Of a stretch of 10,048 nt of DNA, positions 1,162 to 5,777 are shown piece after piece. This DNA is from Planctomycetota bacterium (lineage in GTDB: Bacteria; Planctomycetota; Phycisphaerae; UBA1845; Fen-1342). A program made the position numbers and the translations under genes. Below the pieces are notes generated by a model. It was not told the origin of the DNA, made no database searches, and saw nothing but the letters and a program-made list of their open reading frames with translations. The stretch covers positions 1 to 10,048 of the forward strand of contig JAUWXH010000028.1 of NCBI GenBank assembly GCA_030616465.1. The letters run 5' to 3'. Position 1 is the stretch's first letter. Every line of letters starts with the position of its first letter.

Positions 1162-2028
1162 TTAGCCGCTGCGCAGCGCGTCCACGACGCGGGCGGTAAT
1201 CGTCTTCACCAGCGCCTCGAAATCGTCCGCGCTATGCCGCCCTTTCTCCGCGGATGTGTCGCCGGCACGATCAGAGGGTGATGCGGCGGCGTCGCCGGCA
1301 CCGTCAGGTTCCACCTCACCCGTGACGCCGCGCCCATATTCCGTATTTACACAGAGTTCGCCCCCGTGCACGCGCCGCGGGTCGGTGCCGGCGCCGAACT
1401 GCTCCCTCAGGTCCAACAGTTCGTGTACTTTCGCTCCGGGCAGGCGCTCTATGTGCCCGAGCTGTTTGGCCAACATCAGCATGCGGCAGTACGAATCGAG
1501 AATCTCGGTATACCAATACGCCCGCTCGACCGTCCGTCCCCAACTCACCGTCCCGTGGTTGCTCAACACCACCGTATTCGCCTTGCTGACGAACGGACGC
1601 ACGGTCTCCGCGAAACGCTGCCCGCCCGGCGTCGCGTAGTCGGCCCGCGGTACCACACCCAGGAAGACCTCCACCTCCGGCAGAATGCAGGTTGGGATGT
1701 CCACGCGCGCAACGCCGAACGCGGTCGCGTGCGGCGGGTGGCAATGCACGACCGCTTTTGCCGAGGGGGCTGCCCGGTAGATTTCCAAGTGCATGAGGAC
1801 CTCGCTCGTCCGCTTGCGCTTGCCGGCGAGCTGGTTCCCGTCCATATCGACCTCGCAGAGATCGTCTACCTTCATGAACCCCTTGCAGATTTGCGTCGGC
1901 GTGCAGAGGACTGCGTTGCCCGAAAGGCGGTAGGAGATGTTGCCGGCGTTGCCGGCCGCAAACCCCTGGGCATAGAGGCGCCGGCCAATCTCGCAGATCT
2001 CTTTCTTGATTTCCCATTCATTAGCCAT
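1162..2028 (-). CDS. Class II aldolase (FucA/RhaD type) with C-terminal BMC-targeting-like tail
   Basis: A zinc-dependent class II aldolase/adducin-family enzyme. The family cleaves L-fuculose-1-phosphate or L-rhamnulose-1-phosphate to dihydroxyacetone phosphate and L-lactaldehyde. With the ATG at 2028 as residue 1 the product is 288 aa. Visible are the phosphate-binding GNAGNIS motif (26-32), TPT (43-45), the catalytic Glu (TSEVLMH, Glu76), zinc ligands His95 and His97 in VVHCHPPHATAF, and the third His158 in SNHGTVSWG. The core ends near residue 215. Most FucA proteins stop there, but this one adds about 70 residues: an Ala/Asp/Gly-rich linker and a terminal amphipathic helix. The ATG is preferred over the in-frame GTG at 2043 because GAGGG lies 8 nt before it and nothing similar precedes the GTG. 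It is 27 bp downstream of the DeoR gene, almost certainly in the same transcript. Exact sugar-phosphate specificity cannot be told from sequence. Confidence 0.92.
   Translation of the reverse strand: MANEWEIKKEICEIGRRLYAQGFAAGNAGNISYRLSGNAVLCTPTQICKGFMKVDDLCEVDMDGNQLAGKRKRTSEVLMHLEIYRAAPSAKAVVHCHPPHATAFGVARVDIPTCILPEVEVFLGVVPRADYATPGGQRFAETVRPFVSKANTVVLSNHGTVSWGRTVERAYWYTEILDSYCRMLMLAKQLGHIERLPGAKVHELLDLREQFGAGTDPRRVHGGELCVNTEYGRGVTGEVEPDGAGDAAASPSDRAGDTSAEKGRHSADDFEALVKTITARVVDALRSG
1165..1227 (-). other. Putative BMC encapsulation peptide at the aldolase C-terminus
   Basis: The last 21 residues of the aldolase form a predicted amphipathic helix containing FEALVKTITARVVDAL. Hydrophobic residues Phe270, Leu273, Val274, Ile277, Val281, Val282 and Leu285 fall on one face at i, i+3, i+4, i+7, i+11, i+12 and i+15, with charged and small residues opposite. 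It is separated from the catalytic core by a flexible linker (about residues 234-266) rich in Gly, Ala, Asp, Ser and Glu. A disordered linker plus a short terminal amphipathic helix is the established signature of encapsulation peptides that load enzymes into bacterial microcompartments. Planctomycetal BMC class II aldolases are known to carry such C-terminal tails. Assignment rests on pattern, not on a database match. Confidence 0.65.
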
Positions 2029-2055
2029 CGCTAAAACCCTCACATGCCGAGCGTG

Positions 2056-2817
2056 TCAGCCGGCGATATCCGTTTTCACGCCCATTCTGGTCAGTTCCTC
2101 GATCACGGCGGCGTCCGTGCCCGCATCCGTGATCACAAGATCCACGTCAGCCGGACTCGCGTAGAACACAAGCGACCTCACGCCGAACTTGCCGTGATCG
2201 GCGAGCAGGTACGTTCTTTCCGCCGCGTCGATCATGCGGCGTTTCACGCGGGCCTGCTCATCCGTTGCTTCGCTCAGCCCGCGCGCAAGGTCAACCCCCT
2301 TGGCGGATAAAAACAGCTTGTTGACGTTGAAGCGTTCGAGGGCGTGCTCCGCGAGTGTGCCGGTGAAGGATCGCGACGGCGCGTCCAACATCCCGCCGGT
2401 AGCCACGACCCGAATGTGTGCACTATCGACCAGAGAGGCGGCTACCGGCAGTGAGTTCGTGATGACCGTCAGCGGCATATCCGGAATGATCCGCGCCAGC
2501 TCGTGCACGGTGGAGCTGGCGTCTACCGCGATAACGTCGCCTTCGCTAACGTGCCGCAGCGCTCGGGCCGCAATCGCTTTTTTCGCCTCCAGATTCGTGA
2601 CCTTGCGAAGGTCGAACGGCAGCTCCCGGCGGTTGTTCTGCACCGGCACGGCCCCGCCGTGAGTGCGGACGAGCCGGCCTTCGCCTTCCAGCTTGTCCAG
2701 GTCGCGTCGAATCGTCTCCTGGGCGACCCCGAACGCTTTGGCCAGCGTGGCCACTCGGACGCCCCCACCCCTGCCGACCTGGCTCAGGATCTCCCGGTGC
2801 CGTTGTACCGCCAGCAT
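2056..2817 (-). CDS. DeoR-family transcriptional regulator
   Basis: A 253-residue sugar-metabolism repressor of the usual DeoR length. The N-terminal winged helix-turn-helix spans about residues 5-57, with the recognition helix at QETIRRDL (33-40) and the family signature HGGA (53-56) just after the wing. The C-terminal DeoRC effector domain (about 75-235) has the expected phosphorylated-sugar binding elements: DASST (99-103), TNS (120-122), a Gly-Gly turn (141-142), KGVD (173-176), LSE (181-183) and DHGKFG (207-212). The effector is probably a sugar phosphate, plausibly the aldolase substrate, but this is inferred from the operon. The ATG at 2817 follows a GAGAGA purine run on the minus strand, a modest ribosome binding site. 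It is the first gene of the operon, and autoregulation is likely. DeoR-type regulators are common partners of planctomycetal BMC aldolases. Confidence 0.93.
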   Translation of the reverse strand: MLAVQRHREILSQVGRGGGVRVATLAKAFGVAQETIRRDLDKLEGEGRLVRTHGGAVPVQNNRRELPFDLRKVTNLEAKKAIAARALRHVSEGDVIAVDASSTVHELARIIPDMPLTVITNSLPVAASLVDSAHIRVVATGGMLDAPSRSFTGTLAEHALERFNVNKLFLSAKGVDLARGLSEATDEQARVKRRMIDAAERTYLLADHGKFGVRSLVFYASPADVDLVITDAGTDAAVIEELTRMGVKTDIAG

Positions 2818-3126: not shown

Positions 3127-3617
3127 GCCAAGAGGGCGTAGCCGACCGTAGCCTGGGCGGAGGGGTGATGCCCCACGGGAGCGTCGGGCACAGGTGATGT
3201 GAGGGCTACCGCGGGAGTTCGCACGGGATGACCATAGCCCAAGCTCCGCCAAAGGGGCACATCGACTCCGACGAGGGGAATGCGCGCGATCTGCCCGGGG
3301 CGACATGCAAGCTGTGGAACACGCCAGGAGCGACGCGGCTACAAGCCCACCGGCCGCTTGCGCGCGGTCCGTCGGCGTCGCGCTAGTCCCACTGCACGTT
3401 GAGGGAATTCACCGAGGCGCGGGCCACGGCCAAGCGCAGCGCGGCCACGCTATGTCCGGGTGATTGGACATGCCCGCGCCGGCGGCCGGCGGCCACCGAC
3501 TTAGGCATCGTACCCAGCCCGGATGGTCCTGCCGCCCTACCAGCACCGCCGTGTTTCGCCAATAATGCGGCCTGGAAAGTGACTGCGGACGAGTTACCCC
3601 GCCATCAGGAGACTGAA
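3127..3617. other. Gene-free stretch upstream of the prolyl oligopeptidase gene
   Basis: About 490 bp with no gene I can support. It contains CGTAGCC twice, 10 bp apart (3137-3143 and 3147-3153), and GGTGATG twice (3164-3170 and near 3193-3199). There is also a small GGGG/CCCC hairpin (3162-3174), a GGGCTA/TAGCCC inverted repeat (3203-3208 and 3235-3240) and the ATGTCC inverted repeat listed separately. A possible -10 element AATAAT (3561-3566) lies about 50 nt before the oligopeptidase start but has no good -35 partner. The oligopeptidase frame is open back to 3399, but that extension is not protein-like. Confidence 0.55.
3452..3471. promoter_or_regulatory. ATGTCC-N8-GGACAT inverted repeat
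   Basis: ATGTCC (3452-3457) and GGACAT (3466-3471) are perfect 6-bp inverted arms around 8 nt, about 150 bp upstream of the oligopeptidase start. The dyad could be a regulator binding site. There is no supporting second copy in the window, so confidence is low. Confidence 0.22.
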
Positions 3618-5777
3618 ATGAACCCGTTCAAACACGTAGTCGTCATCGGAACAATCGCCATTCTGGCCGTCGGCGGGGCGACCGCTTATGGGCAGGCAGA
3701 GCTGCCCATCGATCAGCCGCTGGTCTACCCCAAAACCAAGACCATCGATGTCGTGGAGGACTACCATGGCACGAAGGTCACCGATCCATACCGCTGGATG
3801 GAGGACCTCGACTCCCCGGGAGTCAAGGATTGGATCGAGGCGCAGAACAAGGTCACCTTCGGGTATCTGGAAACCATCCCCCAGCGGAAGAAGATCAACG
3901 AGCGGCTGACCACGCTGTGGGACTACGAGAAGTACGGCATGCCGCGCAAACGCGGCGATCGCTACTTCTTCAGCAAGAACGACGGGCTGCAAAACCAATA
4001 CGTGCTCTACGTCACCGAATCGCTCGACGGGCAGCCACGTGTCTTGATCGATCCGAACAAGCTATCCGAAGACGGCACGATCGCACTGGCCGGCACGGCG
4101 ATCACCGATGACGGCAAGCTGATGGCCTACGGGTTGGCAGAAGCCGGTTCGGACTGGGTCGAGTACCACGTCCGCGACGTCGATGCCGGGAAAGACCTGT
4201 CGGACCATCTTAAGTGGATCAAGTTCTCCGGGGCGTCGTGGACGAAGGATGACCAGGGCTTCTACTACACGCGCTACGACCAGCCGGAGGGCGACGTACT
4301 GCAAGAGACGAACCGCTTTCCGAAGCTGTGCTACCACCGGCTGGGCACGCCGCAAGCGGAGGACAAAGTGGTCTTTCACGCTCCGGATCAGCCGGAGTGG
4401 CTGTTCGGCGGCGAGGTGACCGACGATGGCCGCTACCTGATCATTTCGATCGGCAAAGGCACCGAGCGGAAGAACCGCGTCTATTACATTGACCTCCAAG
4501 CCAGCGACGAGAAAGTCGTGAAGCTGGTCGACGTCTTTGACGCGCAATACGGCTTTATCGACAACGACGGGCCGGTGTTCTGGTTCTTCACCGACCTCGA
4601 CGCGCCGCGCGGGCGCGTGATCGCCATCGACACGCGCAAGCCACAGCGGGAGAACTGGAAGGAAATCATTCCGCAGGCCAAACAGACCCTGCGGGGCGTC
4701 GGCGCGGTGAACGACATGTTCATCGCCAACTACCTCAAGGACGCCCACACGCAGATCAAGATCTTCGATCTGGAGGGCAAGTTCGTGCGTGACGTCGAGC
4801 TGCCCGGCGTCGGCAGTGCCGGCGGGTTCGGCGACAGGCGCGACGAAACCGAAACCTTCTACATCTTCACCGGCTTCTCTTATCCGACCCCCATCTACCG
4901 TTACGACATGCCGACTGGTGAAAGCACCGTCTTCAAGCGGCCGAAGGTAGACTTCAACCCCGCCGAGTTCGTCACCAAACAGGTGTTCTACCGCAGCAAA
5001 GACGGCACGCGCGTGCCGATGTTCATCACGCACAAGAAGGGCCTCGAGCTCGACGGGAACAACCCCGTCTACCTATACAGCTACGGCGGGTTCAACGCTT
5101 CACTTACGCCGTATTTCTCGATCAGCAACCTGATCTGGATGGAGATGGGCGGAGTTTATGCCATGCCGAACATCCGCGGCGGCGGCGAGTACGGCAAAGA
5201 GTGGCACGAGGCCGGCCGGCTCACCAACAAGCAGAACTGCTTCGACGACTTCATCGCCGCGGCTGAATGGCTCATCGCCAACAAGTACACCCGGCCGGAG
5301 AAGCTCGCGATCGGCGGAGGCAGCAACGGCGGGCTGCTGGTCGGCGCCTGCATGACGCAGCGCCCGGACCTGTTCGGGGCCTGCCTACCGGCGGTGGGCG
5401 TGCTGGACATGCTCCGCTTCCACAAGTACACGATCGGCTGGGCCTGGACGTCCGACTACGGCAGTGCGGACGATCCCGAGATGTTCAAGGTGCTGTACGC
5501 CTACAGCCCGCTGCACAACCTCAAGCCGCGCACGGAGTATCCGGCGACACTCATCACCACTGCCGACCACGACGACCGCGTTGTACCGTGCCATAGCTTC
5601 AAGTTCGCGGCGGCGTTGCAGGCGGCCCACGCCGGCGACAACCCGGTGCTGATCCGTATCGAAACCCGGGCCGGGCACGGAGCCGGCAAGCCGACCAGCA
5701 AGATCATCGACGAAATCGCCGACAAATGGGCCTTCCTCGTGCGGACGCTGAACGTGGATACGTCCGGGGTATACTGA
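3618..5777 (+). CDS. Exported prolyl oligopeptidase (peptidase family S9A)
   Basis: A serine peptidase that cuts short peptides after proline. The product is 719 aa, close to the roughly 710 aa of classical prolyl oligopeptidases, plus a signal peptide (residues 1 to about 27: short basic start, hydrophobic core, AYGQA cleavage region), so it should act in the periplasm. The N-terminal region PYRWMED (about 57-63) is typical; a seven-bladed beta-propeller follows, then the alpha/beta hydrolase domain from about 450. Catalytic Ser569 lies in GGGSNGG, Asp652 in TADHDDRVVP and His687 in RAGHGAGKP. The P1-proline pocket motif AWTSDYG and the conserved RGGGEYG are present. The ATG at 3618 is chosen because AGGAG (3607-3611) is 6 nt upstream and the signal peptide begins there; the open frame back to 3399 has no such support. 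The small membrane protein gene begins 39 bp downstream with no obvious terminator between. Confidence 0.95.
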   Translation: MNPFKHVVVIGTIAILAVGGATAYGQAELPIDQPLVYPKTKTIDVVEDYHGTKVTDPYRWMEDLDSPGVKDWIEAQNKVTFGYLETIPQRKKINERLTTLWDYEKYGMPRKRGDRYFFSKNDGLQNQYVLYVTESLDGQPRVLIDPNKLSEDGTIALAGTAITDDGKLMAYGLAEAGSDWVEYHVRDVDAGKDLSDHLKWIKFSGASWTKDDQGFYYTRYDQPEGDVLQETNRFPKLCYHRLGTPQAEDKVVFHAPDQPEWLFGGEVTDDGRYLIISIGKGTERKNRVYYIDLQASDEKVVKLVDVFDAQYGFIDNDGPVFWFFTDLDAPRGRVIAIDTRKPQRENWKEIIPQAKQTLRGVGAVNDMFIANYLKDAHTQIKIFDLEGKFVRDVELPGVGSAGGFGDRRDETETFYIFTGFSYPTPIYRYDMPTGESTVFKRPKVDFNPAEFVTKQVFYRSKDGTRVPMFITHKKGLELDGNNPVYLYSYGGFNASLTPYFSISNLIWMEMGGVYAMPNIRGGGEYGKEWHEAGRLTNKQNCFDDFIAAAEWLIANKYTRPEKLAIGGGSNGGLLVGACMTQRPDLFGACLPAVGVLDMLRFHKYTIGWAWTSDYGSADDPEMFKVLYAYSPLHNLKPRTEYPATLITTADHDDRVVPCHSFKFAAALQAAHAGDNPVLIRIETRAGHGAGKPTSKIIDEIADKWAFLVRTLNVDTSGVY

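Follow-up and report, generated by a model that had tools for sequence, protein, structure and literature searches.

Gene content of the window

The window, that is, the whole stretch of 10,048 nucleotides analyzed here, is an entire 10-kb contig that bears no shell gene. It codes for a class II aldolase (Table 1) of 293 aa when read from the GTG; the ATG at 2028 (MANEWEIKKE) is the likelier start, since a 96%-identical metagenome protein starts at the same point. The enzyme matches PF00596 with E=4e-47, and the solved folds nearest to it include YgbL and L-fuculose-1-phosphate aldolase. The signature residues of class II (zinc) aldolases appear to be in place, as E81, H100, H102 and H163 are invariant across 20 aligned homologues; extending the roles known from E. 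coli FucA, we take these to be the catalytic glutamate and the three zinc histidines. A DeoR-family regulator precedes the aldolase with 27 bp between it and the ATG, and the two genes are probably co-transcribed.

Elsewhere the contig carries genes for a prolyl oligopeptidase, for a protein resembling potassium/proton antiporters and for a PPDK_N protein, plus two ORFs with no family assigned; family annotation of the whole contig revealed no link between these genes and the aldolase. The prolyl oligopeptidase (3399-5777, + strand; PF02897 and PF00326) likely has a later start, since a signal-like sequence, recognized by eye, begins at MNPFKHVVVIG.

Table 1. Features of the aldolase-regulator region in window coordinates
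Feature	Position	Strand	Remarks	Families
Class II aldolase CDS	1162..2043	-	GTG start 2043, likelier ATG 2028; stop 1162-1164	PF00596
Aldolase catalytic core, residues 1-239	1327..2043	-	from alignment of homologues; pLDDT block means 76-97 after residue 10	
Linker, residues 240-271	1231..1326	-	Ala/Gly/Asp/Glu/Ser-rich; pLDDT <50 at residues 242-269	
Terminal helix, residues 272-292, putative encapsulation peptide	1168..1230	-	pLDDT block means 84-91; contains FEALVKTITARVVDAL (275-290)	
DeoR-family regulator	2056..2817	-		PF00455, PF08220
Candidate DeoR operator CACAGAAAACCAAA	2848..2861	-	inferred; 14-base motif chosen post hoc	

A C-terminal tail resembling those of aldolases in PVM loci

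The initial annotation had described a linker and a final helix after the aldolase core, at 1165..1350, which corresponds to the last 62 residues of the enzyme. This is confirmed by an AlphaFold2 model, built on a 20-sequence alignment, in which a low-confidence linker gives way to a confidently predicted helix (Table 1); tailless orthologues stop before, or shortly past, the conserved core. Encapsulation peptides of bacterial microcompartments (BMCs) are defined in excerpts of PMC8217296 as terminal helices of 15-20 residues with a flexible linker, and the tail as modelled fits this helix-plus-flexible-linker definition. The further argument that the hydrophobic residues of the helix lie on one face proved weak: when its 16 residues were shuffled, 16.6% of the permutations reached or exceeded its hydrophobic moment of 0.382. 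Amphipathicity alone hence proves little, and we rejected it as sole proof of an encapsulation peptide, as it is not significant against the shuffles.

According to excerpts of PMC4207490 and PMC8857213, the microcompartments of the PVM (Planctomycetes-Verrucomicrobia) type serve fucose and rhamnose; their signature enzyme is a class II aldolase, and their regulator is a DeoR protein. We built a tail profile from 57 aldolases of planctomycetal PVM loci (L125-L185), taking the C-terminal 45 residues of each (one of these training tails, that of L179, has a frameshifted end), and searched it against 9,345 C-termini, among which were 2,000 shuffled versions of the window tail. The window tail matched this profile at 26.1 bits (E=4.2e-6), as against 8.2 bits for the top shuffle, and only aldolases were recovered at E<1; it is this likeness to the tails of PVM loci that gives the tail its significance. 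Among the relatives, the profile scored E=9e-9 for the aldolase of locus L107, 0.0035 for that of genome G103, a weak 0.044 for G096 and a non-significant 5.8 for G005. The G005 tail is therefore recognized solely by a looser pattern, one that was picked after inspecting the sequences and is the basis for counting both G096 and G005 as tailed. A simple tail pattern was met by 91 among the 120 database proteins listed, and some of those scored as 'none' by it nonetheless end in a related helix.

The tail tracks microcompartment genes

At the level of loci, we examined 94 distinct aldolases, after excluding 11 duplicate loci and two aldolases scoring <320 bits (in the SPU loci L089 and L104). 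The homologue search retained the best 80 as ranked by similarity over the full length, a choice that favours tailed enzymes; its search patterns lay in the core. BMC genes occur on the same stretch as 70 of these aldolases, and 69 of the 70 are tailed; the remaining one, L179, was scored as tailless, its tail being encoded in another reading frame. None of the 15 other tailless aldolases has BMC genes on the stretch examined (P = 7e-12, with L179 omitted along with L079, the locus of G024, whose aldolase is cut by the contig end and was counted as unknown; shared ancestry is ignored in this value). Eight tailed aldolases are without BMC genes on their stretch, namely those of the window, L066, L067, L070, L123, L157, L167 and L173, with the aldolase lying close to a contig end in the last four.

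A less biased count is provided by the 114 genomes of the window's order, 35 of which hold an orthologue at E<=1e-70. Of these orthologues, 16 have the tail, 18 lack it and one, in G024, is cut short (G051 and G118 also have tailed enzymes, but fall outside this set). A PF00936 match is present in all 16 genomes with a tailed orthologue versus 4 of the 18 with a tailless one (G017, G026, G034 and G113); the genomes without such a match accordingly have a tail in 0 of 14 orthologues. The PVM marker protein c7 was detected at E<1e-30 in 13/16 tailed genomes and 1/18 tailless ones (G113), and the three tailed genomes in which it was not detected at this threshold, G000 (the window's own), G005 and G063, are 63-77% complete. 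The corresponding Fisher P values, which likewise ignore shared ancestry, are 2e-6 for any BMC domain and 1e-5 for the PVM marker. Judged from these genes, the tail appears to be shared by the aldolases that lie in shell loci and missing from their homologues in shell-less genomes, with G113 as the exception. Helices serving in oligomerization or membrane binding are found in many enzymes, and the unexceptional hydrophobic moment would suit an element of this kind, unconnected with microcompartments; yet such a helix would hardly be expected to follow shell genes in this manner when the core is conserved in tailed and tailless enzymes alike, and we regard this explanation as very improbable.

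In a tree built from the catalytic core, the two outgroups of the window's clade both consist of tailed enzymes, nearly all of them from PVM loci, which makes the tail ancestral. Four changes of the tail label are required on this tree; since one of these is the frameshifted L179, three losses are counted, one of which is forced by well-supported branches. Taken together, the structure prediction, the profile match, the genome counts and the core tree lend good support to the prediction that this PVM-type aldolase bears an encapsulation peptide.

PVM operons that lack an aldolase, and tailed aldolases encoded elsewhere

The PVM marker was recognized in eighteen genomes, in 17 of them at E<1e-30 and in G118 at 7e-15, and in 12 of the 18 the aldolase gene lies inside the PVM operon, past the third BMC-P (G029, G030, G035, G039, G042, G045, G048, G054, G057, G060, G069 and G118); the PVM operon of G066 is broken by contig ends. 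The relatives G096, G103, G015, G024, G113 and L107 have PVM operons in which the BMC-P genes are not followed by an aldolase, and RnfC and BMC-T genes are found there or on a further contig. In L107 (VGXW01000001.1), whose aldolase is 74% identical to that of the window over residues 8-245, the DeoR and tailed aldolase genes are directly divergent from the PVM operon; in G096 the tailed aldolase lies on the same contig as the operon, at a distance of ~570 kb. Two genomes run against the reading of the tailed enzyme as PVM cargo, which leaves both unexplained: G113 (81% complete) combines a PVM operon with a tailless orthologue, and in G015 (L100; 97% complete), which also has a PVM operon, no aldolase homologue was found at E<=1e-3.

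The loci L086, L093/L094, L097/L098, L100, L107 and L198/L199, in which RnfC and BMC-T are present and no aldolase follows BMC-P, possibly represent a PVM subtype. We also noted that the marker c7 (e.g. L086:7972-8685 and L073:10025-10633) is a protein of ~200 aa occurring in most PVM loci examined, with no Pfam match at 1e-5 in the one copy scanned. It may be a relative of RpiB, as its profile weakly matches RpiB-DeoC fusion frames, along with other ORFs, over approximately residues 100-180.

The regulator and a candidate operator

The window DeoR falls into a group with 100/100 support together with the DeoR proteins of G015, L107 and G005. Those of G015 and L107 adjoin the PVM operon and that of G005 adjoins its tailed aldolase, whereas G096 and G103 have, next to their PVM operons, DeoR proteins of another group that are 33% and 28% identical. 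The window regulator hence looks to be of the PVM-system kind, and we infer co-regulation. Upstream of it, the candidate operator (Table 1) is the single exact match to CRCAGAAWNMCAAA in its own genome; similar sites are found upstream of DeoR in G005 and G015, with no exact one in L107. Loose matches to the motif number seven in 263 kb of loci, five of them upstream of DeoR (the window once, G005 twice, G015 twice, L107 none) and two elsewhere, and a shared DeoR operator is only a lead.

Shell genes of the window's own genome

The assembly to which the window belongs is 62.7% complete, and all its PF00936 and PF03319 matches are confined to one contig of 3,226 bp, C533, where a gene for a PF00171 aldehyde dehydrogenase is followed by one for BMC-T and two for BMC-P. 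The initial annotation had inferred that the organism probably makes a sugar-phosphate/lactaldehyde microcompartment, and this is borne out in part: shell genes exist, but in trees the aldehyde dehydrogenase and BMC-T of C533 group with loci bearing an RpiB-DeoC fusion, and by this grouping they appear to be of the SPU and not the fucose/rhamnose PVM kind. Of the genes it had proposed to look for, the assembly contains BMC-P and an aldehyde dehydrogenase, whereas BMC-H and a PduL-type phosphotransacylase (PTAC, PF06130) were not found; given the completeness of the assembly, the latter result is not decisive. Nor did the assembly yield a match to c5 or a PVM-type shell gene, and the c7 profile gave a partial match only (E=3.8e-5). 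The two outcomes that had been named as speaking against an encapsulation peptide, namely a genome devoid of shell genes and a tail equally conserved where BMC genes are lacking, are not what we observed.

The SPU signature enzymes RpiB and DeoC are not on C533. An ORF there (L065:2933-3226), RHS-repeat-like by eye and without a Pfam match at 1e-5, follows the second BMC-P, which is the place of a short aldolase in the SPU loci of G012 and G031.

One way of reading these data is that the SPU-type shell takes up the tailed aldolase, making one compartment for ribose/deoxyribose and methylpentose phosphates. SPU-type genes are indeed the sole shell genes seen both in the window's own genome and in G005, which parallels it in having a tailed aldolase and SPU only; further, an N-terminal stretch of the SPU aldehyde dehydrogenase of C533, EQVDRIARRVMHGL, shares by eye the hydrophobic spacing of the helix, and C533 is without the aldolase that follows BMC-P in G012 and G031. 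However, G017, G026 and G034, which are 94-97% complete and have SPU genes with no strong match to the PVM marker, hold tailless orthologues in 3/3 cases, so that SPU shells seemingly do not maintain the tail, and the two genomes combining a tail with SPU genes only are just 63% and 68% complete. We therefore consider SPU loading unlikely, and quite unlikely the related notion of a hybrid organelle, in which a mobile cargo tag would bring nucleic-acid sugar and methylpentose phosphates into the care of one SPU shell.

A different account would make the tail a relic, with the PVM organelle recently lost and the aldolase now cytosolic. It would sit well with an assembly in which no PVM shell gene was found and with other genomes of the clade that have neither tail nor BMC domains. 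What it does not predict is the conservation of the helix, which is 18/19 identical in an 84%-identical metagenome protein whose linker has drifted (18/26; core 201/232), and 19/19 identical in the 96%-identical one. Moreover, no remnant of a tail was seen past the stop of tailless orthologues in 16 downstream regions (L168 and L189 being the same contig). We deem a relic rather improbable. A PVM shell encoded in the unassembled part of the genome is instead likely, considering the tailless orthologues of G017, G026 and G034, the grouping of the DeoR protein and the arrangement in L107.

Substrate and proposed mechanism

The best NCBIfam model for the aldolase, 3-oxo-tetronate 4-phosphate decarboxylase, scores under its cut-off and names another activity, and the substrate is thus predicted from gene neighbours in relatives. 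In G096, G103 and G005 the tailed aldolase adjoins L-rhamnose isomerase and alpha-L-rhamnosidase, remote from shell genes. A rhamnulokinase is also present in the rhamnose cluster of G096 and G103 (the G096 isomerase and kinase score under the NCBIfam cut-offs, at 529.0 versus 531.35 bits and 481.8 versus 527.95 bits), and in G005 rhamnose isomerase, tailed aldolase, DeoR and rhamnosidase all lie together. The window's own genome has an L-rhamnose isomerase on contig C515, 73% identical to that of G005, with no further rhamnose genes recognized beside it, and a single, partial rhamnosidase-domain match of 28.5 bits (cut-off 24.5). No fucose isomerase (PF02952) was detected in this genome (63% complete), so that fucose is not favoured as the substrate. 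The rhamnose clusters of the relatives and the isomerase of the own genome make L-rhamnulose-1-phosphate the likely substrate. In L066 (9907-11562) and L067 (3807-5480) the genes for the tailed aldolase and the alpha-L-rhamnosidase are separated by one for a protein of 551-557 aa, whose L066 copy matched no family.

We consider it probable that the window aldolase is a PVM cargo delivered in trans by its tail to a shell encoded elsewhere in the genome. As the linker and helix match the tails of aldolases in PVM operons, the helix would dock the enzyme in a PVM-type shell, presumably by binding shell or core proteins during assembly. The aldolase would split its sugar phosphate into dihydroxyacetone phosphate and lactaldehyde, and this toxic aldehyde would be kept in the lumen and processed there by the PVM aldehyde dehydrogenase and PduL, the route described in excerpts of papers on PVM compartments, PMC4207490 and PMC8857213 among them. 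The aldolase gene would have left the shell operon in this lineage, with delivery in trans coming to depend on the tail.

Relation to known microcompartments

Features of the window aldolase recall several known systems. Excerpts of PMC8217296 describe for the ACI microcompartment of Acidobacteria a PF00596 aldolase with a C-terminal encapsulation peptide, as is predicted here, but that aldolase lies within its locus and in another phylum. The HO microcompartment, as portrayed in the same excerpts, has PF01791 enzymes elsewhere in the genome, some with an extension resembling an encapsulation peptide; the likeness is that of an enzyme distant from the shell locus and tied to it by its extension, whereas the aldolase family, the N-terminal position of the extension and the shell type all differ. 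The SPU system is shared through the shell genes of C533; however, its signature enzymes are RpiB and DeoC, and those class II aldolases that neighbour the SPU loci in G012 and G031 lack a tail and are only ~35% identical.

The closest resemblance is to the PVM system, which, in the parts of PMC4207490, PMC8217296, PMC8857213 and PMC6620236 drawn on, has a homologous aldolase, a similar C-terminal helix and a DeoR-family regulator. The window aldolase is mostly 51-62% identical to those of planctomycetal PVM loci, and differs in that its gene stands outside a shell operon, with no PVM shell gene found in its own, incomplete genome. Among the titles and abstract openings listed, a scope that did not extend to Erbilgin 2014, reportedly the founding PVM paper, we found no PVM aldolase encoded apart from the shell operon. 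What is new is the combination of three things: PVM operons that lack the aldolase, a tailed aldolase located away from them, and tailless enzymes where there are no shell genes.

PVM aldolases have so far been recognised as neighbours of shell genes. With the signature enzyme outside the operon, and with PVM operons of relatives lacking it, surveys confined to the surroundings of shell genes would miss it, and the tail is what connects the detached aldolase with the shell operon. The loss of the tail in shell-less genomes would offer a natural control for the function of encapsulation peptides, and suggests that the helix could act as a genome-wide marker of cargo.
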